Assembly: GCA_022801595.1 (NCBI GenBank)
Contig: JAAWSO010000002.1
Span: 143,663-207,662, forward strand
Source of the DNA: Clostridiales bacterium
Lineage (GTDB): Bacteria; Bacillota; Clostridia; Oscillospirales; Acutalibacteraceae
Reading direction: 5' to 3'
Length of the DNA: 64,000 nt
Shown here: in pieces, positions 15,096 to 63,929 of the stretch
How positions within the stretch are numbered: the stretch's first letter is position 1
How the letters are laid out: each line of letters opens with the position of its first letter
The notes under the pieces: model-generated
What the model was told of the DNA's origin: nothing
The model's database searches: none
What the model saw: only the letters and a program-made list of their open reading frames with translations
Translations under genes and position numbers: made by a program

Positions 15096-16514
15096 ATGTA
15101 TAATGTCAAGTCAAAAGTAGCTGCCGAATTTATTGATGACAATGAAATTTTAGAAACCTTGGAATATGCCAAACAAAATAAAAGCAACCGGGAATTGATT
15201 TCTGGGCTGTTGGAACGGGCCAAGGACTGCAAAGGGCTAACGCACCGGGAAGCTGCTGTTCTTCTGGAATGCGACCAGGAAGACTTGAATCGTCAGATGG
15301 AGGCCCTGGCTAAAGAGATCAAGCAAAAATTTTACGGAAACCGGATTGTTATGTTCGCCCCTTTGTATCTCTCGAACTATTGCATCAATGGCTGTACTTA
15401 TTGCCCGTACCATTTTAAAAATAAAAACATTTGCCGCAAGAAGCTGACTCAGGAGGAAATCCGCCAGGAGGTGATTGCCCTCCAGGATATGGGCCATAAG
15501 CGTCTGGCCTTGGAAGCGGGAGAAGATCCAGTTCATAACCCGATTGAATACATTTTGGAGAGCATTGAAACCATTTATAGTATCAAACATAAAAATGGAG
15601 CGATCCGCCGGGTAAACGTAAATATTGCCGCCACCACCGTGGAGAATTATCGGAAACTGCACGACGCTGGGATCGGCACCTATATCTTGTTCCAGGAAAC
15701 CTATCATAAGGAAACCTATGAAAAACTGCATCCTACCGGCCCAAAACACAATTATGCCTACCATACGGAGGCTATGGACCGGGCTATGGAAGCGGGCATC
15801 GACGATGTGGGGATCGGCGTACTGTTCGGCCTCAATCTTTACCGCTACGATTTCGTCGGCCTGCTCATGCACGCGGAGCATTTGGAAGCCGCAATGGGAG
15901 TGGGCCCTCACACCATCAGCGTACCTCGGATCCGTCCTGCGGATGACATCAATCCTGAGGACTTTCCCGATGCGATCAGTGATGATTTGTTTGCGAAAAT
16001 TGTTGCTGTCCTGCGCATTGCTGTGCCATATACCGGCATGATTATTTCTACTCGGGAATCCCAAAAGTCCCGGGAGCGGGTGTTGGATTTAGGCGTTTCC
16101 CAGATCAGCGGTGGTTCCCGAACCAGCGTCGGCGGCTATGTGGACGAGGAGCCGGAGGAGGAGAATTCCGCCCAGTTTGATTTGAGCGATACCAGGACTT
16201 TGGACGAGATTGTCAATTGGCTGCTGACTTTGGGGTATATCCCTAGCTTCTGTACCGCCTGTTATCGGGAAGGGCGTACCGGCGACCGGTTTATGCAATT
16301 GGTGAAATCCGGGCAGATTGCCAACTGCTGCCAACCCAATGCCTTGATGACCCTCAAGGAATATTTAGAGGACTATGCCTCCGAGGATACCCGAAGCAAG
16401 GGGGAGGCGGTGATCGCGGAGGAGATGGAGCGTGTGCCGAATCCGAAAGTTAAGGAAATCGCCACCAGGTATTTGCAGGAAATGAAGGAAGGGAAACGGG
16501 ATTTCCGTTTCTAA
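15096..16514 (+). CDS. hydG: [FeFe] hydrogenase H-cluster radical SAM maturase HydG
   Basis: Radical SAM CxxxCxYC: APLYLSNYCINGCTYCPYHFKNK; C-terminal FCTACYREGRTGDRFM. GTG at 15090 is an alternative start. Confidence 0.95.
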   Translation: MYNVKSKVAAEFIDDNEILETLEYAKQNKSNRELISGLLERAKDCKGLTHREAAVLLECDQEDLNRQMEALAKEIKQKFYGNRIVMFAPLYLSNYCINGCTYCPYHFKNKNICRKKLTQEEIRQEVIALQDMGHKRLALEAGEDPVHNPIEYILESIETIYSIKHKNGAIRRVNVNIAATTVENYRKLHDAGIGTYILFQETYHKETYEKLHPTGPKHNYAYHTEAMDRAMEAGIDDVGIGVLFGLNLYRYDFVGLLMHAEHLEAAMGVGPHTISVPRIRPADDINPEDFPDAISDDLFAKIVAVLRIAVPYTGMIISTRESQKSRERVLDLGVSQISGGSRTSVGGYVDEEPEEENSAQFDLSDTRTLDEIVNWLLTLGYIPSFCTACYREGRTGDRFMQLVKSGQIANCCQPNALMTLKEYLEDYASEDTRSKGEAVIAEEMERVPNPKVKEIATRYLQEMKEGKRDFRF

Positions 16515-16545: not shown

Positions 16546-17745
16546 ATGGAATTGCAACAGACCCCTGGCGCCAATCGGCTGCATATTGGAATTTTTGGCC
16601 GGCGAAACAGCGGGAAATCCTCGCTGATCAATGCCATCACCCAACAGGAGATCGCATTGGTCAGCCAGGTGGCTGGCACCACAACGGATCCAGTTTATAA
16701 GGCTATGGAAATTCCAGGCATTGGTCCTTGTATGCTGATTGATACCGCGGGATTTGACGACGAGGGGGATTTGGGCGCCATGCGGGTGGAGAAAACCCGG
16801 GCGGCTCTGGCTAAAACAGATGTGGCGATTCTGGTGTTTTCTCAGCTCGACCTGAGCCGGGAAGCGGAGTGGGTTGCCGCCCTGCGCCAAAAGAAAACCC
16901 CGATTTTGGCTGTGATCAGTCAACGGGACGTGCGGACGGAAGCAGAGATTGTAGCTTTGCAGCAGGCGGTGCGGGAACACTTTTCCCTGGAGCCTCTGTT
17001 GGTAAGCGCCAAAGAAGGCGCTGGGATTTCCCAAATCAAAGATGAAATTCTAAGGGCGATGCCGGAAGATTTTGAAATGGCCAGTATCACCGGCCATTTG
17101 GTGTCGCCGCACGATGTGGTTTTGCTGGTAATGCCCCAAGATATCCAAGCCCCCAAAGGCCGTCTGATCTTGCCGCAAGTCCAGACCATCCGGGATTTGC
17201 TGGATCATCAATGCGTGGTGATGAGCGCCACAGCGGATCAGTTGGAAACGGCTTTGGCTGCCCTGGAAAAGCCGCCCAGCTTGATTATTACCGATTCCCA
17301 GGTATTTCCTTTTGTGTTTGAGCGCAAACCAGAGGAAAGCCGGCTGACGTCCTTTTCCATTCTGCTGGCTGCTTATAAAGGGGACTTATCCGCTTTTGTG
17401 ACAGGGGCCAAGGCGATTGACACCCTAACCGAACAGTCCCGGGTATTGATTGCGGAAGCCTGTACCCATGCGCCGCTGAGTGAAGATATTGGGCGGGTAA
17501 AAATTCCTGCCATGCTGCGCAAACGGTTTGGTTCAGGCTTACAGGTGGATTTGGTTAGTGGAGCGGATTTTCCGCAAGATGTTTCCTCCTACGACCTGAT
17601 TATCCATTGCGGAGCCTGTATGTTCAACCGTAAACATGTGCTGTCCCGCGTGGAGCAAGCCAAACAGCAAGGGACGCCAATTTGCAATTACGGCGTTGTC
17701 ATTGCTAAGTTGACTGGGATTTTAGATCATGTTTTCTTAGGTTAG
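16546..17745 (+). CDS. hydF: [FeFe] hydrogenase H-cluster maturation GTPase HydF
   Basis: GRRNSGKSSLINAI P-loop; AGTTTDPVYKAMEI; DTAGFDD; C-terminal HCGACMFNRKHV Fe-S ligands. Confidence 0.95.
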   Translation: MELQQTPGANRLHIGIFGRRNSGKSSLINAITQQEIALVSQVAGTTTDPVYKAMEIPGIGPCMLIDTAGFDDEGDLGAMRVEKTRAALAKTDVAILVFSQLDLSREAEWVAALRQKKTPILAVISQRDVRTEAEIVALQQAVREHFSLEPLLVSAKEGAGISQIKDEILRAMPEDFEMASITGHLVSPHDVVLLVMPQDIQAPKGRLILPQVQTIRDLLDHQCVVMSATADQLETALAALEKPPSLIITDSQVFPFVFERKPEESRLTSFSILLAAYKGDLSAFVTGAKAIDTLTEQSRVLIAEACTHAPLSEDIGRVKIPAMLRKRFGSGLQVDLVSGADFPQDVSSYDLIIHCGACMFNRKHVLSRVEQAKQQGTPICNYGVVIAKLTGILDHVFLG

Positions 17746-55501: not shown

Positions 55502-55855
55502 ATGAAATTACAGGAAATTGTAGACGTTTTAAAGGCGGAGGTGGTTAGTTCAGCCGATAACATGGATGCGGAGATTCAGACTGCCTGCGGCAGCGATATG
55601 ATGAGCGATGTGTTAGCGTTCGCCAAGACTCAATCGGTATTTCTCACCGGACTGATGAATCCCCAAGTGGTGCGCACTGCGGAGATGATGGACATGTGCG
55701 CCATTATTTTTGTGCGGGGAAAACCAGTGGATGACATGGTAGTCGCCCTGGCAGAGCAAAAAGGGATTAGCATCCTCAAGACGGGTTTTACCATGTTTAC
55801 CGCCTGTGGCATGCTGTACGAGCGGGGAATCAGAGGAGCGTGTGAACGGAAATGA
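55502..55855 (+). CDS. DRTGG-domain-like protein
   Basis: MKLQEIVDVLKAEVVS...DVLAFAKTQSVFLTGLMNPQVVRTAEMMDMCAIIFVRGKPVDDMVVALAEQKGISILKT. Confidence 0.75.
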   Translation: MKLQEIVDVLKAEVVSSADNMDAEIQTACGSDMMSDVLAFAKTQSVFLTGLMNPQVVRTAEMMDMCAIIFVRGKPVDDMVVALAEQKGISILKTGFTMFTACGMLYERGIRGACERK

Positions 55856-56280
55856 AGGCTTTAACACTAGAATATCATGTGCCGGGCGATGATTTTACCC
55901 GGGCGGGAGAAGCGTCCAGCAAAGTGAAAAATATGCTCAAACGGATGGGCTTCGATTCCGATACCATCCGCCGTGTGGCAATTGCTATGTATGAAGGAGA
56001 AATCAACATGGTGATTCATGGCGGTGGAGGCAACGCGTTTGTCAACATCTACGCCGACCGAGTAGAAATCTCCTTGGTGGACCATGGGCCCGGCATTGCT
56101 GACGTGGACAAAGCCATGCAGGAAGGCTACTCCACCGCGCCGGATAACGTCCGTGCTTTGGGCTTCGGCGCGGGTATGGGCCTGCCAAACATGAAAAAGT
56201 ATACCGATGCGCTTCAGGTGGAATCGGTGGTCGGAGAGGGGACGACCTTAAAAATGACCATTTTTGCCGGTGGCAAATAA
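55852..56280 (+). CDS. GHKL-type ATP-binding protein (RsbW/anti-sigma-like)
   Basis: AIAMYEGEINMVIHGGGGNAFVNIYADRVEISLVDHGPGIADVDKAMQEG...GAGMGLPNMKKYTD. Confidence 0.85.
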   Translation: MKALTLEYHVPGDDFTRAGEASSKVKNMLKRMGFDSDTIRRVAIAMYEGEINMVIHGGGGNAFVNIYADRVEISLVDHGPGIADVDKAMQEGYSTAPDNVRALGFGAGMGLPNMKKYTDALQVESVVGEGTTLKMTIFAGGK

Positions 56281-56313
56281 ATTTTGTATTTTAGAGAAAA
56301 AGAGGGGGTTTGT

Positions 56314-57654
56314 ATGGATCGTTTTTTTCATTCCGTAACCTTAGACGTGGAGAAATGCGTCGGCTGTACAAACTGTATCAAGCGGTGCCCCACCGAGGCG
56401 ATTCGAGTGCGCGATGGCAAGGCGATTATCACTCCCGAACGCTGCATTGACTGCGGCGAATGTATCCGGGTTTGTCCACACCACGCAAAAAAAGCCAACT
56501 ACGACAGCATCAGCATGATCCAGAATTTTACCTATAAAATTGCATTGCCTGCGCCGTCTCTCTACGGCCAGTTTCAGCATTTAGATGATATTGATATTGT
56601 TCTCACCGGCTTAAAGGCTTTGGGGTTTGATGAGGTATATGAGGTATCCCGGGCGGCGGAGCTGGTCTCCGAGGCGACCCGGAAGATCATCCAGAAGGGA
56701 CATTTGTCCAAACCTCTGATCAGTTCTGCCTGCCCGGTGGTGGTACGTCTGATACGGGTTCGTTTCCCGGATCTGTGTTCCCATGTGTTGTCCCTCAACG
56801 CTCCCATGGAAACTGCCGCCTGCTTGGCAAAAGAAGAAGCTTCCCAGCGTCTGGGAATTCCGGTGGAAGAGATTGGCGCCTTTTTTATCACCCCATGCCC
56901 GGCTAAAGTCACCGATATTAAAGTCCCGATTGGGATTCCCAAATCCCAGGTGGACGGCGCCATTGCGGTCAGTGAGATTTTTGCAAAATTGAGCTATGCG
57001 ATGGATCATTTGGAAAAAATTGAGCCGATTTCCAAATCCGGCGTGATTGGGGTAGGCTGGGCGTCTAGCGGCGGAGAGGCCGCCGGTTTGCTCAACGATA
57101 AATACTTAGCCGCTGACGGCATTGAAAACGTAATCCGGGTGCTGGAAGAGTTGGAGGACGAGCGGATTCGCGGGCTGGATTTCATCGAACTGAACGCCTG
57201 CTCCGGCGGGTGTGTGGGCGGTGTATTCTGTGTGGAAAATGCTTATGTGGCGAAAGCCCGTCTCCAAGGATTGCGCCGTTACTTACCGGTTTCCCAAAAC
57301 CATTTGAAAGAGAATATTCCGGCTTGCATGGAATGGCAGGAGGACTTGGAATTTGCGCCGGTACTCAAGCTATCTGACGATGTGGGCGAGGCGGTACGGA
57401 TGATGATGGAAATCGACGAGATGTGCCGTCAATTCCCTGGGATGGACTGCGGCTCCTGTGGAGCGCCTTCTTGCCATGCTTTTGCGGAGGATGTAATCCG
57501 TGGGCTTGCCAAAAAAAGCGATTGTATTTTTATTCTGCGGGATGAAATTAAACAAGTGGCCAGCACGTTGTCGTCGATGGGAAACATGACCGCCATGGGA
57601 CAGGTTACGCCAAAACACCACGAGGAAAAGGAGGGAGAACATGACGGTTCATGA
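56314..57654 (+). CDS. [FeFe]-hydrogenase-like Fe-S protein (putative sensory type) with 4Fe-4S ferredoxin and C-terminal Fe-S domain
   Basis: CVGCTNCIKRCPTEAI...CIDCGECIRVCPHHAK; divergent H-cluster-region motifs SSACPVVVRLI, FITPCPAKV, NACSGGCVGG; C-terminal GMDCGSCGAPSCHAFAEDV. Confidence 0.85.
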   Translation: MDRFFHSVTLDVEKCVGCTNCIKRCPTEAIRVRDGKAIITPERCIDCGECIRVCPHHAKKANYDSISMIQNFTYKIALPAPSLYGQFQHLDDIDIVLTGLKALGFDEVYEVSRAAELVSEATRKIIQKGHLSKPLISSACPVVVRLIRVRFPDLCSHVLSLNAPMETAACLAKEEASQRLGIPVEEIGAFFITPCPAKVTDIKVPIGIPKSQVDGAIAVSEIFAKLSYAMDHLEKIEPISKSGVIGVGWASSGGEAAGLLNDKYLAADGIENVIRVLEELEDERIRGLDFIELNACSGGCVGGVFCVENAYVAKARLQGLRRYLPVSQNHLKENIPACMEWQEDLEFAPVLKLSDDVGEAVRMMMEIDEMCRQFPGMDCGSCGAPSCHAFAEDVIRGLAKKSDCIFILRDEIKQVASTLSSMGNMTAMGQVTPKHHEEKEGEHDGS

Positions 57655-57979
57655 GTTACAGGAAGCGTGCGGCCTTTCGATCCTGATTTGTGAGGAGCCA
57701 GAGAGGTTGCAGCAGGAAATTACGGGATGCTATATCGGGGACTTTTTAAGCTGGGCCATGGGCAAGATTGCCGCCGGGAATGTTTGGATCACGGTGATGG
57801 GAAACGTCAACGCCCTGGCTGTGGCAGCTTTGACCGATGCAGCCTGCATCATTTTGGCGGAAGGGGCCTCCTTGGATGAGGAAGCAGTGCAGAAGGCCAA
57901 ACAGCAGGGGATTCTTGTGCTTGCAGCGGAACAAAGCAGCTACCAATTGGCTGTGCGGATTGGGGAGCGGTTGAACTAG
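57641..57979 (+). CDS. DRTGG-domain-like protein
   Basis: GNVWITVMGNVNALAVAALTDAACIILAEGASLDEEAVQKAKQQGILVLAAEQSS; overlaps the preceding stop. Confidence 0.75.
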   Translation: MTVHELQEACGLSILICEEPERLQQEITGCYIGDFLSWAMGKIAAGNVWITVMGNVNALAVAALTDAACIILAEGASLDEEAVQKAKQQGILVLAAEQSSYQLAVRIGERLN

Positions 57980-57981
57980 TT

Positions 57982-58716
57982 ATGCCAAGGGTTTATTATG
58001 ATTTTCACTTACATTCCTGTTTATCCCCCTGCGGAGACAGCGATATGACACCCTATAACCTGGTGAATATGGCCAAATTTCTGGGTTTTGATATGATTGC
58101 CCTCACCGACCACAATTCCTGCCTGAATTGCAAAGCGGCGGTGGAGGCGGGCGAGCAGGTTGGGCTGACAGTGGTGCCAGGGATGGAACTTTGTACGGTG
58201 GAGGAAGCTCATGTGGTGTGCCTGTTTCCCACCGTGGAGGACGCCATGGGCTTTCATCATTATGTACAGGAAAATACGGTATCCATTCCCAATGATCCAG
58301 AAATTTTCGGGAAACAGGTGATAATGGACGCCATCGATCAGATGCTGGGGGAGGAACCTTGTTTGCTGATCAATGCCAGCAATATCAGCGTCAGCCATGT
58401 GGCAGAACTAGTGAGGCAATTTCATGGAGCGGCTTTTCCCGCTCATATCGACAAATCTGCGTACAGCGTCATTGCCAGTTTGGGCGTGGTGCCGGAGGAC
58501 GCTGGGTTTTCCGCGGTAGAAATCAGCCATAGCGGCGATATATCCCTGTTGAAAAAGACTAACCCGGAAATTAACGATAAAATTTTACTGCGCAATTCCG
58601 ATGCTCATTATCTGGAGCACATGGAAGATCCACTGGCATGGCTGGAGTTGCCGGAGGCGACGGCGGAGGCTTTGATTGAGGCTTTGAACGGCGAGGTTTT
58701 TGTCGAGTGGGGATGA
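57982..58716 (+). CDS. PHP domain-containing putative metal-dependent phosphoesterase
   Basis: YYDFHLHSCLSPCGDSDMTPYNLVNMAKFLGFDMIALTDHNSCLNC; C-terminal LRNSDAHYLEHM. Confidence 0.88.
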   Translation: MPRVYYDFHLHSCLSPCGDSDMTPYNLVNMAKFLGFDMIALTDHNSCLNCKAAVEAGEQVGLTVVPGMELCTVEEAHVVCLFPTVEDAMGFHHYVQENTVSIPNDPEIFGKQVIMDAIDQMLGEEPCLLINASNISVSHVAELVRQFHGAAFPAHIDKSAYSVIASLGVVPEDAGFSAVEISHSGDISLLKKTNPEINDKILLRNSDAHYLEHMEDPLAWLELPEATAEALIEALNGEVFVEWG

Positions 58717-58844: not shown

Positions 58845-58890
58845 TTGTTAAGAAAATATCATAGCTTTTAGGAAGCAATAGTGCTATAAT
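58845..58890 (+). promoter_or_regulatory. internal promoter for hydC-hydB-hydA with possible Rex half-site
   Basis: GTGCTATAAT extended -10 (TATAAT 58885-58890), TTGTTAA at 58845-58851. Confidence 0.5.
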
Positions 58891-58905: not shown

Positions 58906-58925
58906 GAACCAAAATGGTTCTTTTT
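58906..58925 (+). terminator. promoter-proximal terminator-like hairpin upstream of hydC
   Basis: GAACCA-AAA-TGGTTC followed by TTTTT. Confidence 0.4.
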
Positions 58926-58979: not shown

Positions 58980-59474
58980 ATGCAAAAGCGGATTAGTAAT
59001 CTGGCCTTTCAAGGGACAGAAGAACAGCAAAAAAAATTATTTGAAGTAATCGACCGGCGTAAAAATGAGCAGGGCGCAGTGATGCCGATTCTGCAGGAGG
59101 CGCAGGAGATCTACGGCTATTTGCCCATTGAGGTTCAGATGATGGTGGCAGAACGCCTGGGCGTTTCCCTGGAGGAAGTGTTTGGCGTTTCCACCTTCTA
59201 TTCCCAATTCTCCCTGACCCCAAAGGGGAAATATGACATTTCCGTCTGTTTGGGAACCGCTTGTTACGTCAAAGGAGCCGCCGAGATCCTGGACAAAATT
59301 TCGGAAATCGTCGGGATCCAGCCAGAGGAGTGTTCCGAGGATGGAAAGTTCTCCCTGACCGCTTGCCGCTGCATCGGCGCTTGCGGATTGGCTCCGGTTT
59401 TGACCATTAACGAAGAAGTATACGGCCGGGTGACAGTGGATGATGTGCCTGGCATTTTAGAAAAATATCATTAA
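58980..59474 (+). CDS. hydC: NuoE-like [2Fe-2S] subunit of bifurcating hydrogenase
   Basis: GVSTFYSQFSLTPKGKYDISVCLGTACYVKGAAEIL...CRCIGACGLAPVLTI; start refined to 58980. Confidence 0.9.
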   Translation: MQKRISNLAFQGTEEQQKKLFEVIDRRKNEQGAVMPILQEAQEIYGYLPIEVQMMVAERLGVSLEEVFGVSTFYSQFSLTPKGKYDISVCLGTACYVKGAAEILDKISEIVGIQPEECSEDGKFSLTACRCIGACGLAPVLTINEEVYGRVTVDDVPGILEKYH

Positions 59475-59479
59475 GGCCT

Positions 59480-60022
59480 ATGCGGGAATTATCGCTGAAT
59501 GTTATGGATGTGGCGCAGAATTCGGTGGCAGCCGACGCGTCCCTGATTACCGTCCGGGTGATGGAGCGGGGAAACCGTCTGACCATTGAGATTCAAGACA
59601 ATGGAAAGGGGATGACCGAGGATCAGGTGTCCCATGTCGCCGACCCGTTTTTTACCACCCGTACCACCCGAAAAGTGGGGCTGGGGGTGCCGCTATTTAA
59701 GATGCAGGCGGAAATGACCGGGGGAAGCTTTTCCATTGCTTCCCATCCTGGCGAGGGGACTGCTGTGAAAGCGGAGTTTGTGACCTCCCATGTGGATATG
59801 ATCCCCTTGGGAGATATGGATGCCACCATGCTGTTGCTGATTACCTGCAATCCCCAGCGGGATTTTATCTATATCCGGGGGAAGGATGGCCGTGAATTTA
59901 CCCTGGACACCCGGCAGCTTCGGGATGTGCTGGGGGAGGAAGTGCCCCTCAATACCCCGGATGTGGCCGCGTGGATCAAAGAGTTTTTACAGGAACAAAC
60001 CAGTTACATCGAGAAAGGATGA
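59480..60022 (+). CDS. GHKL/histidine kinase-like ATPase domain protein
   Basis: MRELSLNVMDVAQNSVAADASLITVRVME...IEIQDNGKGMTEDQVSHVADPFFTTRTTRKVGLGVPLFK; no phosphoacceptor His domain. Confidence 0.88.
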   Translation: MRELSLNVMDVAQNSVAADASLITVRVMERGNRLTIEIQDNGKGMTEDQVSHVADPFFTTRTTRKVGLGVPLFKMQAEMTGGSFSIASHPGEGTAVKAEFVTSHVDMIPLGDMDATMLLLITCNPQRDFIYIRGKDGREFTLDTRQLRDVLGEEVPLNTPDVAAWIKEFLQEQTSYIEKG

Positions 60023-60029
60023 TGCTTTT

Positions 60030-60401
60030 ATGAAGTCATTAGCAGAGCTTCAGGCGATCCGAGAGAAAGCTCGGAGTCAGATCAGTGTGCGGGAAGGCAG
60101 CAACGATGCTGTCCGCGTGTTGGTGGGAATGGCCACCTGCGGGATTGCGGCTGGCGCTCGCCCGGTTTTGACCGCCATCTTGGATGAAATTTCTAAGCGG
60201 GGTCTCAACAAAATTACGGTGACCCAAACCGGCTGTATCGGGATTTGCCAATTTGAGCCAGTGGTGGAAGTCATTGCTCCTGGACAGGAAAAAGTAACTT
60301 ATGTTAAAATGACTCCAGAAAAAGCTGTGCGTATGGTCAACGATCATTTGGTAAACGGCAATGTGGTGACCGAATTTACCATTGGCTCAAATACGAAATA
60401 A
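60030..60401 (+). CDS. [2Fe-2S] thioredoxin-like ferredoxin
   Basis: VGMATCGIAAGARPVLTAILDEISKRGLNKITVTQTGCIGICQFEPVVEV; start refined to 60030. Confidence 0.85.
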   Translation: MKSLAELQAIREKARSQISVREGSNDAVRVLVGMATCGIAAGARPVLTAILDEISKRGLNKITVTQTGCIGICQFEPVVEVIAPGQEKVTYVKMTPEKAVRMVNDHLVNGNVVTEFTIGSNTK

Positions 60402-60416
60402 AGAGGAGGAAATCAA

Positions 60417-62207
60417 ATGTATCGTTCCAATATCCTTGTTTGCGGCGGCACAGGTTGTTCTTCTTCCAACAGTGAATTGATCATTGCCACACTGAAAGAG
60501 GAACTGGCGGCCCAGGGACTGGAGAAGGAAGTCAATGTGGTGCGTACTGGCTGCTTTGGCCTGTGCGCCTTAGGTCCGATTATGATCGTGTATCCCGAAG
60601 GTGCGTTCTATAGTATGGTGACCCCGGAGGACATTCCCGAGATCGTGGAGGAACATTTGCTCAAAGGCAGAATCGTCAAGCGGCTGCTTTATCAGGAGAC
60701 CGTAGCCGAGGACGAATCCGTTCATTCCTTGACGGAAACGCAGTTCTATAAAAAACAAGTGCGCATTGCCTTGCGAAACTGCGGTGTCATTAACCCAGAG
60801 GTGATCGAGGAATACATTGCCATGGACGGCTATTCGGCGCTGGGCAAGGCGCTTACCGAAATGACCCCGGAGGAAGTCATTCAGGTCATCAAGGACTCCG
60901 GCCTGCGAGGCAGAGGAGGCGGCGGCTTTCCAACTGGTGTGAAATGGGGGTTGGCCGCACAGAATCATGCGGATCAGAAATACGTTTGCTGTAACGCGGA
61001 CGAAGGAGACCCAGGCGCGTTTATGGACCGTTCCGTTTTGGAAGGCGACCCTCACGCGGTGCTGGAAGCCATGGCCATTGCCGGTTATGCCATTGGCGCG
61101 TCCCAAGGTTACATATACATCCGGGCAGAGTATCCCATCGCGGTCAATCGTTTAGAAATTGCCATCCAGCAGGCCAGAGAGCTGGGATTGCTGGGCAAGG
61201 ATATTTTCGGCACCGGTTTTGATTTTGATATTGAGCTGCGCCTTGGCGCCGGCGCGTTTGTGTGCGGTGAGGAAACTTCCCTGATCGCTTCCATCGAAGG
61301 CCGCCGCGGCGAGCCGAAGCCCCGTCCACCTTATCCGGCTGTCAAAGGTTTGTTCGGCAAGCCTACCATTTTGAATAATGTAGAAACCTACGCCAACATT
61401 GCGCAGATCATCCTCAACGGCGCGGACTGGTTTAAGTCCATTGGCACCGAGCGTTCCAAGGGAACCAAGGTGTTTGCGCTGGGCGGCAAGATCAAGCATA
61501 CTGGTCTGGTGGAAGTTCCTATGGGCACTACCCTGCGGGAAATTGTGGAGGAGATTGGCGGCGGCGTATCCGACGGCGGTAAGTTCAAGGCCGCGCAAAC
61601 CGGCGGCCCGTCCGGCGGCTGTATCCCGGCCCAATTCCTGGATGTAGAGATCGACTATGATAACCTGATTGAGATCGGTTCTATGATGGGTTCCGGCGGC
61701 CTTATTGTTATGGACGAGAGCACCTGTATGGTGGATATTGCGGAATTCTTTCTCCGGTTTACCGTGGATGAATCCTGCGGCAAATGTACCGCCTGCCGGG
61801 TAGGCACCAAACGCTTGCTGGAAATCCTGGAAAAGATTACGTCCGGCAGAGGTGAGCGTGGCGACATTGAACGCTTGGAGAAGCTTTCTTACTATATCAA
61901 GGAAAATTCCCTGTGCGCCTTGGGGCAAACCGCTCCCAATCCGATCCTCTCTACCCTGAAATATTTCCGCGACGAATACGTAGCCCACGTAGAAGAGCAT
62001 CGCTGTCCAGCCGGCGCCTGCAAGGCGTTGACCAGCTATACCATTGTTGCGGTGGATTGCCGTGGGTGTACGCTTTGTGCCAGGAATTGTCCGGTGGGCG
62101 CGATCAGCGGCGCGGTCAAGGAAGCCCATGTGATCGATCAGTCCAAGTGTATCAAATGCGGCGTTTGCATGGAGAAATGTAAGTTTGACGCGATTGTTAA
62201 GGGTTAA
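60417..62207 (+). CDS. hydB: NuoF-like flavin/Fe-S subunit of bifurcating hydrogenase
   Basis: GLRGRGGGGFPTGVKWG, CNADEGDPGAFMDRSVLEGDPHAVLEAM, ESCGKCTACRVGTKRLLEIL, C-terminal 2x[4Fe-4S]. Confidence 0.94.
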   Translation: MYRSNILVCGGTGCSSSNSELIIATLKEELAAQGLEKEVNVVRTGCFGLCALGPIMIVYPEGAFYSMVTPEDIPEIVEEHLLKGRIVKRLLYQETVAEDESVHSLTETQFYKKQVRIALRNCGVINPEVIEEYIAMDGYSALGKALTEMTPEEVIQVIKDSGLRGRGGGGFPTGVKWGLAAQNHADQKYVCCNADEGDPGAFMDRSVLEGDPHAVLEAMAIAGYAIGASQGYIYIRAEYPIAVNRLEIAIQQARELGLLGKDIFGTGFDFDIELRLGAGAFVCGEETSLIASIEGRRGEPKPRPPYPAVKGLFGKPTILNNVETYANIAQIILNGADWFKSIGTERSKGTKVFALGGKIKHTGLVEVPMGTTLREIVEEIGGGVSDGGKFKAAQTGGPSGGCIPAQFLDVEIDYDNLIEIGSMMGSGGLIVMDESTCMVDIAEFFLRFTVDESCGKCTACRVGTKRLLEILEKITSGRGERGDIERLEKLSYYIKENSLCALGQTAPNPILSTLKYFRDEYVAHVEEHRCPAGACKALTSYTIVAVDCRGCTLCARNCPVGAISGAVKEAHVIDQSKCIKCGVCMEKCKFDAIVKG

Positions 62208-62225: not shown

Positions 62226-63929
62226 GTGTTTCAGATAAAAATTAATGATATGCCCTTCTCGGTACCGAAGGGTTCTACCATTCTTGAGGCGGCTCGATTT
62301 GCCGGGCTCCACATTCCAACCCTATGTTTCCTCAAGGATCTCAATGAAATCGGCGCCTGTCGGGTTTGTGTGGTAGAAGTGAAAGGCGCTCGTTCCTTGG
62401 TTGCGGCTTGTGTGCATCCGGTGAGCGAGGGTATGGAGATTTATACCAATACGCCAAAGGTGATCGAGGCGAGAAAAACCACCTTGCAGTTACTGCTGTC
62501 CGTCCATAACCGGAGCTGTCTGTCTTGTGTGCGCAGCGGAAGCTGTGAACTGCAAGCTTTGTGCCATGATCTGGGTGTGGATATTGAGGATGCATATGAC
62601 GGCGATATGCCGGATACGATTTACGACGACAGCACTGCCCACATGATCCGGGATAACAGCAAATGTATCCTATGCCGCCGTTGTGTCGCTGCCTGTCAGG
62701 AGCAGCATACGGCTGTAATCGGGCCAAACGGACGGGGATTCGATACTCATATTGCCTGTGCCTTTGAGCTGCCGCTGGATCGTGTGGCCTGTATTTCCTG
62801 CGGTCAGTGCATCGTCAATTGCCCGACGGGCGCTTTGGTGGAGAAGGATCAGATTCAGGAGGCTATGGAGCTGCTGCATAACCCAGAGAAACATGTGGTG
62901 GTGCAGGTAGCGCCTTCCATCCGGGCGACCTTGGGCGAATGTTTTGACATGCCTATTGGCACCAACGTCAAAGGCAAAATGGTTTCTGCGTTGCGCCGAC
63001 TAGGCTTTACTCAAGTATTTGATGCAGATTTCGGCGCGGATATGACCATTTTGGAGGAGGCCAACGAACTCGTGGAGCGGATTCAAAATGGCGGTACACT
63101 GCCGATGATCACCTCCTGTAGCCCAGGCTGGATCAAGTTTTGTGAATATTATTTCTCCGATCTGATTCCAAACCTGTCTAGCTGCAAATCCCCCCAACAA
63201 ATGCAAGGGGCTTTGACCAAGACTTGGTATGCGGAAAAGAATGGCCTGGATCCACGGAAGGTAGCGGTGGTCAGCATTATGCCATGTACCGCGAAAAAAT
63301 TTGAAATCGGCCGGGACGATCAGGACGCTGCAGGCCCTGGTATTCCAGATATTGACGTGGTTTTGACCACCCGCGAGCTGGGACGGATGATTAAACGAGC
63401 TGGTTTGGATTTTGTCAACTTGCCAGAGGAAGATTTTGATCCAGCGATGGGCATCACCACTGGCGCGGGCGCGATTTTTGGAGCTACCGGCGGTGTGATG
63501 GAAGCAGCTTTGCGGACGGCGGCCGACACGTTGACCGGCCAATCCTTGGATCAGATTGAATATCAGGAAGTACGCGGTACCGCGGGGATCAAAGAAGCGG
63601 TTTACCAGGTAGCAGGTATGGAGGTCAAGGTTGCCGTGGCCAGCGGCATGAAAAATGCCAATGAACTGATGGAAAAGGTGCGCAAGGGTGAGGCAGATTA
63701 TCACTTTATTGAGATCATGGGATGCCCAGGCGGCTGCGTCAACGGCGGCGGCCAACCAACCCAGCCGGCGATTGTCCGAAGTTTTACCGATCTGAAGGCT
63801 ATCCGTGCCAAGGCTTTATATGACGAGGATGCGAACTTGCCGTTGCGCAAGAGCCATGACAGCCCCATTGTCAAGCAGGTTTATGAGGAGTTCCTCGGGA
63901 ACCGAAACAGATTTGCCCATACGTCATAA
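62226..63929 (+). CDS. hydA: [FeFe] hydrogenase catalytic subunit, group A
   Basis: N-terminal [2Fe-2S] and HxxxC...Fe-S relay; H-cluster motifs [40 protein letters not shown] start. Confidence 0.96.

Follow-up and report, generated by a model that had tools for sequence, protein, structure and literature searches.

A putative sensory [FeFe]-hydrogenase in a conserved module of GHKL ATPases, DRTGG proteins and a PHP enzyme upstream of an NAD-linked hydrogenase

Genes of the module

The region examined lies on contig JAAWSO010000002.1 of a Clostridiales bacterium, in a stretch of 64,000 nucleotides (the window) whose forward strand carries five genes immediately before those of an [FeFe]-hydrogenase. 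In order, these encode a DRTGG-domain protein of 117 residues (DRTGG1, 55502-55855; PF07085, 2.2e-7), a SpoIIAB/RsbW-type ATPase/kinase of 142 residues (GHKL1, 55852-56280), a hydrogenase-like putative sensor of 446 residues (HydS, 56314-57654; PF02906, 4.8e-30, with PF04060 and two Fer4 domains), a second DRTGG protein of 112 residues (DRTGG2, 57641-57979; PF07085, 5.2e-6) and a PHP phosphoesterase of 244 residues (57982-58716; PF02811, 1e-9). All five open reading frames listed in an earlier, sequence-only reading of this DNA were present, and their Pfam families scored above cut-off in gene order (DRTGG, HATPase_c_2, Fe_hyd_lg_C with FeS, DRTGG, PHP). DRTGG1 and GHKL1 overlap by 4 nucleotides (ATGA) and HydS and DRTGG2 by 14, and a gap of 2 nucleotides separates DRTGG2 from PHP. 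HydS likely begins at the ATG at 56314, 33 nucleotides beyond GHKL1, with a TTG at 56284 as an alternative start that would leave 3. Translational coupling, which the sequence-only reading had extended to the whole set, agrees with the spacing at three of the four junctions. The second GHKL ATPase described there within the hydrogenase genes was also found (GHKL2, 59480-60022, forward strand; 180 residues with its own C-terminal domain; PF02518, 2.9e-15), placed between nuoE and a gene for a small thioredoxin-like 2Fe-2S ferredoxin (60030-60401, forward strand; NCBIfam fdxn_Clost, 4.2e-10, below cut-off).

GHKL1 matched the PDB profiles of SpoIIAB (1.6e-11) and RsbW (1.7e-4), and the GHKL1 fold in the model of a fusion protein matched SpoIIAB (1.5e-10) and the RsbW-RsbV complex (1.4e-6). 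The catalytic Glu and the Asn, both kept in the window, were present in 99% and 100% of the sequences of the family. By these comparisons GHKL1 has the kinase fold of the RsbW/SpoIIAB type, yet is not SpoIIAB itself, because its match to the NCBIfam anti-sigma F model (4.3e-17) fell below the equivalog cut-off. GHKL2 matched histidine kinase and MutL models of NCBIfam and on that basis is histidine kinase/MutL-like rather than RsbW-like. No HisKA/DHp or REC domain was detected by Pfam in the operon, so a classical histidine kinase or two-component system was rejected, in agreement with the earlier view that the ATPases lack phosphoacceptor domains and are not classical sensor kinases.

The two DRTGG proteins are only about 20-30% identical, and both carry the same short motif (SDMMSDV in DRTGG1, GDFLSWAM in DRTGG2). 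Ser35 of this motif was identical in all 215 module DRTGG sequences, with none found to lack it, and Asp32 was present in 99%, giving the signature Asp-x-x-Ser. Both residues were missing at the corresponding columns of the alignable non-module DRTGG domains; that alignment is perhaps off by two positions, and no reading of it places a conserved Ser at the Ser35 spot. An AlphaFold2 model places Ser35 just where a helix begins after a strand. Ser35 is a candidate phospho-acceptor, and could equally bind a ligand. The family II pyrophosphatases with a CBS-DRTGG insert share with these proteins the DRTGG fold and its association with a CBS pair; the Asp-x-x-Ser signature and a kinase-like ATPase partner set the module proteins apart. 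In those pyrophosphatases CBS is the ligand-binding part, and DRTGG reportedly hardly contributes to regulation (PMC11172384).

The metal ligands of the PHP protein (H9, H11, H44, E69, H77, H155, D207 and H209) were intact in the window and kept at about 100% across the family. Cys17 was likewise invariant (99% of 102 sequences), whereas in related PHP enzymes the metal ligand at this position is usually an Asp; the PHP protein may accordingly have an unusual metal site. Its nearest solved relatives, the 5'-3' exoribonuclease 7ug9 and EndoQ, act on nucleic acids or nucleotides.

In HydS, all four H-cluster cysteines were kept (SSACP, TPCPAK and NACSGGC), the proton-path Cys299 was replaced by Ala, and Met353 by Thr; of 90 family sequences scored for the motif, 88 had Thr or Ser at the latter position. 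Two 4Fe-4S motifs occupy the N-terminus and a Cx2Cx4Cx16C motif (CGSCGAPSC-16-C) the C-terminus; the Pfam scan returned an FeS domain and no PAS domain. Under the sequence definition of PMC8163306, HydS is a putative sensory [FeFe]-hydrogenase of group D (M2e). The earlier label of an Fe-S sensor understates the protein, which by this definition is a group D [FeFe]-hydrogenase and more than an Fe-S protein.

HydS has in common with TamHydS of Thermoanaerobacter mathranii, also of group D, an H-domain with the four H-cluster cysteines and two N-terminal 4Fe-4S motifs (PMC8163306, PMC13104023), as well as the C-terminal Cx2Cx4Cx16C motif, the lack of PAS, the loss of C299, the change of M353 to Thr or Ser, and a position upstream of a bifurcating group A hydrogenase near a histidine kinase-like ATPase. 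TamHydS can turn over H2, at low catalytic rates, and was proposed to be sensory; its other neighbour is reportedly an AraC regulator, and a DRTGG or PHP partner was not described there (PMC8163306). In all Thermoanaerobacter, genes for a histidine kinase and for a hydrogenase resembling group D precede the bifurcating hydrogenase (PMC3608648). The group C HydS proteins of T. maritima and R. albus, and hfsB, also set an [FeFe] H-domain as putative H2 sensor beside a catalytic hydrogenase, and deletion of hfsB has a genetic effect (PMC11837493). Group C proteins contain PAS and are linked to the serine-phosphatase-like HfsC or to a histidine kinase, whereas the group D protein is PAS-less and accompanied by GHKL1, DRTGG and PHP. 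We know of no group D enzyme for which a signalling route has been shown.

Two further [FeFe]-hydrogenase-like open reading frames occur in the same genome (G000:C65:90535-91221, L005; G000:C50:55207-55911, L004; frames of 644 and 505 residues). Both scored well below group A and matched the HydS profile weakly; one of them may be a group C-type sensor, in which case the genome would have putative sensory hydrogenases of two kinds.

Conservation, fusions and exchange of the sensor

A search for related loci (numbered with L; their genomes are partly related, and some loci end at contig ends) returned 31 relatives in Clostridia, Deltaproteobacteria and Coatesbacteria with nearly always the same gene order; the Coatesbacteria locus (L035) had neither DRTGG1 nor GHKL1. 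In a co-occurrence sample of 300 genomes of the phylum, HydS of group D type was found in 120, GHKL1 in 126 and both in 119, with 118 adjacent GHKL1-HydS pairs at a median gap of 34 nucleotides. The order DRTGG-GHKL1-HydS-DRTGG-PHP was kept in 71 of the 87 HydS loci with enough flanking sequence, and a stricter count from gene calls gave exactly these five in order at 59 of 88 loci. Recurrence in Clostridia, as had been asserted, was borne out, and Deltaproteobacteria carry the set too; the independent scattering that had been named as the contrary outcome was not seen, since 119 of the 120 HydS genomes held GHKL1. Judged by these counts, the five-gene set is conserved well beyond chance and co-inherited. 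Because 66 of the 71 five-gene loci also have GHKL2, the module is one of six to seven genes, and the set of five, conserved as it is, has to be enlarged by GHKL2 and the small ferredoxin.

GHKL2 was present in 125 of the 300 genomes, 118 of them also with GHKL1, and many genomes with [FeFe]-hydrogenase-like matches had neither ATPase. The idea that GHKL2 is an obligate hydrogenase subunit was weakened, as GHKL2 tracks GHKL1 and also occurs outside the full module in L158. That locus (about 1-2150) has GHKL2 accompanied only by Rex and a single DRTGG gene, a minimal combination with no hydrogenase gene in the fetched stretch, and suggests that a DRTGG-GHKL2 pair may act with Rex.

Several pairs of module genes were found joined in a single frame: DRTGG1-GHKL1 at six loci (L072, L076, L082, L083, L084 and L128), HydS-DRTGG2 at L073 and L080, GHKL1-HydS at L137, PHP-GHKL2 at L123, L124, L127 and L129, and GHKL2-ferredoxin at L099. 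The domains were confirmed by Pfam in one example for most fusion types, and the AlphaFold2 models of the fusions were confident for the individual domains; no interface between domains is claimed from them. The GHKL-DRTGG and sensor-DRTGG pairs that had been suggested for structural modelling thus exist as natural gene fusions.

At four loci (L144-L147), GHKL1 occurred without HydS and carried at its N-terminus a pair of CBS domains (E about 1e-30). Three of these (L145, L146 and L147) had the order DRTGG1-[CBS-CBS-GHKL1]-DRTGG2-PHP-GHKL2, and in L146, which has Rex upstream, the module ran on into NuoE-Fdx-NuoF-HydA. Two intermediates, L130 and L074, had both HydS and CBS sequence on GHKL1, the latter read there from the sequence alone. 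The GHKL1 tree, whose deep support was weak, had CBS-GHKL1 proteins at two positions. The fusions and the replacement by CBS indicate that the HydS position is likely a sensor slot.

In one family the module was split, as seen in two genomes examined. L152 and L153 had DRTGG-DRTGG-PHP-GHKL2, with Rex also beside one of the two, and a separate locus of the same genomes had a histidine kinase and response regulator with GHKL1-HydS. Such a kinase and regulator adjoining GHKL1-HydS were seen only in family f83 (L078, L092). Loci of this family (L078, L087, L092 and L093) carry a conserved membrane-type sensor histidine kinase and an OmpR-type regulator beside GHKL1-HydS, and in this lineage the kinase and regulator could act as the output partner.

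Partner enzymes and Rex

The genes downstream of the five, all on the forward strand, comprise a HydC/NuoE-like 2Fe-2S subunit (58980-59474; PF01257, 1.6e-50), then GHKL2 and the ferredoxin, a HydB/NuoF-like flavin subunit with the NADH motif GDPGAFMDR (60417-62207; PF01512, PF10589, Fer4) and HydA, a catalytic group A [FeFe]-hydrogenase subunit (62226-63929). HydA scored 838 bits against the NCBIfam A6 'NADH-dependent' model, above its cut-off of 765. Pfam placed extra domains on HydB, an N-terminal 2Fe-2S and a C-terminal Fer4, and the published criteria for a bifurcating HydB are extra Fe-S domains and a pattern of Ala/Glu-232 and Met-234 (PMC7311640). HydB here has that sequence pattern, as expected from the earlier claim that a bifurcating hydrogenase follows the five genes, and HydABC is NAD-linked and probably electron-bifurcating. 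The maturases HydG, for H-cluster synthesis (15099-16511; TIGR03955, 940 bits), and HydF (16558-17733; TIGR03918, 546 bits) are encoded in the same 64-kb window on the forward strand, both above cut-off.

HydA was present in the fetched stretch at 59 of 88 loci, in line with a hydrogenase-linked module, although some copies stand beside a formate dehydrogenase and others adjoin no oxidoreductase. In L023, L031 and L033 (Christensenellaceae-type), the order was NuoE-[module]-GHKL2-ferredoxin-NuoF with HydA not adjoining, at the level of the locus. In L151 (13690-16368) and L155 (11846-13471), the module, or a DRTGG/GHKL2 remnant, is followed by NuoEF and a formate dehydrogenase alpha subunit (TIGR01591) in two frames, perhaps split at a selenocysteine TGA. 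In three deltaproteobacterial loci (L028, L029 and L032), two gene sets of the NAD-linked hydrogenase type come after the module, and a HydS-like gene lies in a second operon that runs divergently on the opposite strand; Rex is present in L028 and L032.

Rex is a redox repressor that reads the NADH/NAD+ ratio. Its gene was found in 16 of 88 HydS loci and at five loci overlapped a fused DRTGG1-GHKL1 gene by 4 nucleotides; exact Rex operators, TTGTTAAnnnnTTAACAA, lay 75-96 nucleotides upstream of Rex at four of these five. Wide intergenic gaps upstream of nuoE had, in small numbers, roughly fivefold the density of operator-like sequences (up to 3 mismatches) seen in the rest of the intergenic DNA. 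The present genome has its Rex gene on a different contig. A scan of the window for promoters and terminators stayed near shuffle level, and only a terminator-like hairpin 5' of nuoE was noted (58906-58920, forward strand; consensus scan only). Rex adjoins or overlaps the module in relatives, and the module adds a separate sensor.

Proposed mechanism and alternatives

It appears fairly probable that HydS, or CBS in its stead, gates the GHKL1 kinase, which would act with DRTGG, be opposed by PHP, and so tune the NAD-linked hydrogenase or formate dehydrogenase. The input would be H2 or the redox state of the cluster at HydS, passed on through its C-terminal Fe-S domain, or in other lineages a nucleotide bound to the CBS pair. 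This signal would alter the activity of GHKL1. Bound to DRTGG1 as a processing unit, GHKL1 would place phosphate on a Ser/Thr of a DRTGG protein or of some other partner; PHP would take the phosphate off, a role like that of the PP2C enzymes that remove phosphate in RsbW/SpoIIAB partner switching. On the output side, DRTGG2 and GHKL2 would relay the signal to a target; most likely this is the expression of the hydrogenase, in concert with Rex, or else the activity of the enzyme. Rex would add a parallel NADH input; whether the outcome is activation or repression is not predicted.

The likeness to RsbW/SpoIIAB lies in the GHKL1 fold, the N-box Glu and Asn, a free-standing kinase without HisKA, and an operon that also holds a candidate acceptor (the DRTGG Ser) and a candidate phosphatase (PHP). 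The differences are DRTGG in place of STAS, PHP in place of PP2C, a hydrogenase or CBS sensor, and an operon without a sigma factor, Rex being the associated DNA-binding protein in some relatives. The RsbW-like partner switching suggested in the sequence-only reading is supported as far as GHKL1 is concerned; GHKL2 is not RsbW-like and the classical partner genes are lacking from the operon. Because the operon has no STAS, PP2C or sigma factor, the module falls outside the definition of RsbW partner switching, as it does that of a two-component system, yet it may still work like RsbW switching. Only tentatively do we propose that RsbW-like kinases with DRTGG (invariant Asp-x-x-Ser) as phospho-acceptor, a PHP phosphatase and an exchangeable H2/CBS sensor slot control NAD-linked H2 and formate enzymes across strict anaerobes; if true, this would be a new class of protein-phosphorylation switch.

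Several observations weigh against gating of GHKL1 by HydS or CBS as set out above. The Pfam scan of ten operon proteins detected no STAS, PP2C (SpoIIE/RsbP/RsbX-type) or sigma factor, and the role of Ser35 could be structural or in ligand binding. The lone Rex-like site in the window, TTGTTAAGAAAATATCAT between PHP and nuoE (58845-58862), has 3 mismatches and is not above chance, and a Rex operator is not claimed here; relatives have better Rex sites at the same position. The association of GHKL1 with HydS (Fisher p 6e-74) comes from a statistic that ignores kinship. HydS-DRTGG occurs without GHKL1 or PHP alongside in L108, L110 and L117, no HydA was nearby in 29 of 88 loci (some cut by contig ends), and the L151 copy lies beside an NAD-linked formate dehydrogenase.

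Phosphorylation could be dispensed with if PHP cleaved a small nucleotide, like RNase AM or a nucleoside-bisphosphate phosphatase, and the GHKL proteins responded to DRTGG that, like CBS, had bound adenine nucleotides. The nucleic acid and nucleotide substrates of 7ug9 and EndoQ fit such a messenger, as do the joint presence of DRTGG and CBS in the nucleotide-regulated CBS-pyrophosphatase (PMC11172384), the replacement of HydS by CBS, and an invariant Ser35 near a helix start that could hold a phosphate. We nonetheless consider it unlikely: GHKL1 is closest to a protein-serine kinase and keeps the catalytic Glu, the ligands of the CBS-pyrophosphatase bind CBS with DRTGG hardly mattering (PMC11172384), and the module has no nucleotide synthase.

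A role in assembly, repair or activity, in which chaperone-like ATPases with DRTGG, HydS and PHP would build or protect HydABC without signalling, is quite unlikely. The MutL/HSP90-style N-box of GHKL2 and its matches to MutL and histidine kinase models would suit it, and so would the place of GHKL2 and the ferredoxin among the hydrogenase subunits in a tightly linked operon; it is at odds with the CBS sensor that replaces HydS, with modules lacking a nearby HydA or NuoEF or lying beside formate dehydrogenase, and with the many [FeFe]-hydrogenase-like genomes without GHKL1 and GHKL2, maturation being supplied by HydF and HydG.

HydS might instead be a catalytic side enzyme, transferring electrons in a NuoEF complex or serving as the hydrogenase where HydA is missing, with the other genes as mere company. 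L023, L031 and L033, where the module stands between NuoE and NuoF with no HydA beside it, and the H2 turnover of TamHydS (PMC8163306) speak for this; the replacement of Cys299 and Met353 as in sensory types, the slowness and proposed sensory role of TamHydS (PMC8163306), and a CBS swap that drops HydS and keeps the remaining genes make it very unlikely. That the genes are operon neighbours merely inherited together, with no joint function, is hardly credible: the counts ignore kinship and related genomes inflate them, but fusions of several different pairs, a module that is split yet retained within single genomes, in-place replacement of the sensor, and a set shared by Bacillota and Deltaproteobacteria speak otherwise.

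Part of the module has already been reported, namely HydS with a histidine kinase-like ATPase upstream of bifurcating hydrogenases (PMC3608648, PMC8163306); the sequence-only statement that no mechanism is established holds alongside that pairing. The literature searched contained no description of the DRTGG/PHP set, the fusions or the sensor swap, of which earlier partial descriptions may exist, and a search pairing DRTGG with hydrogenase returned nothing related. To our knowledge, no output pathway has been established for group C and D hydrogenases, hence their label of putative sensory. GHKL1, two DRTGG proteins, PHP and GHKL2 can now be named as conserved partners of the group D sensor, and DRTGG Ser35 and the defined protein pairs are concrete targets for tests. 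H2 sensing and the adjustment of hydrogenases in fermenting anaerobes matter centrally for syntrophy, for the gas balance of the gut and for biofuel yield.

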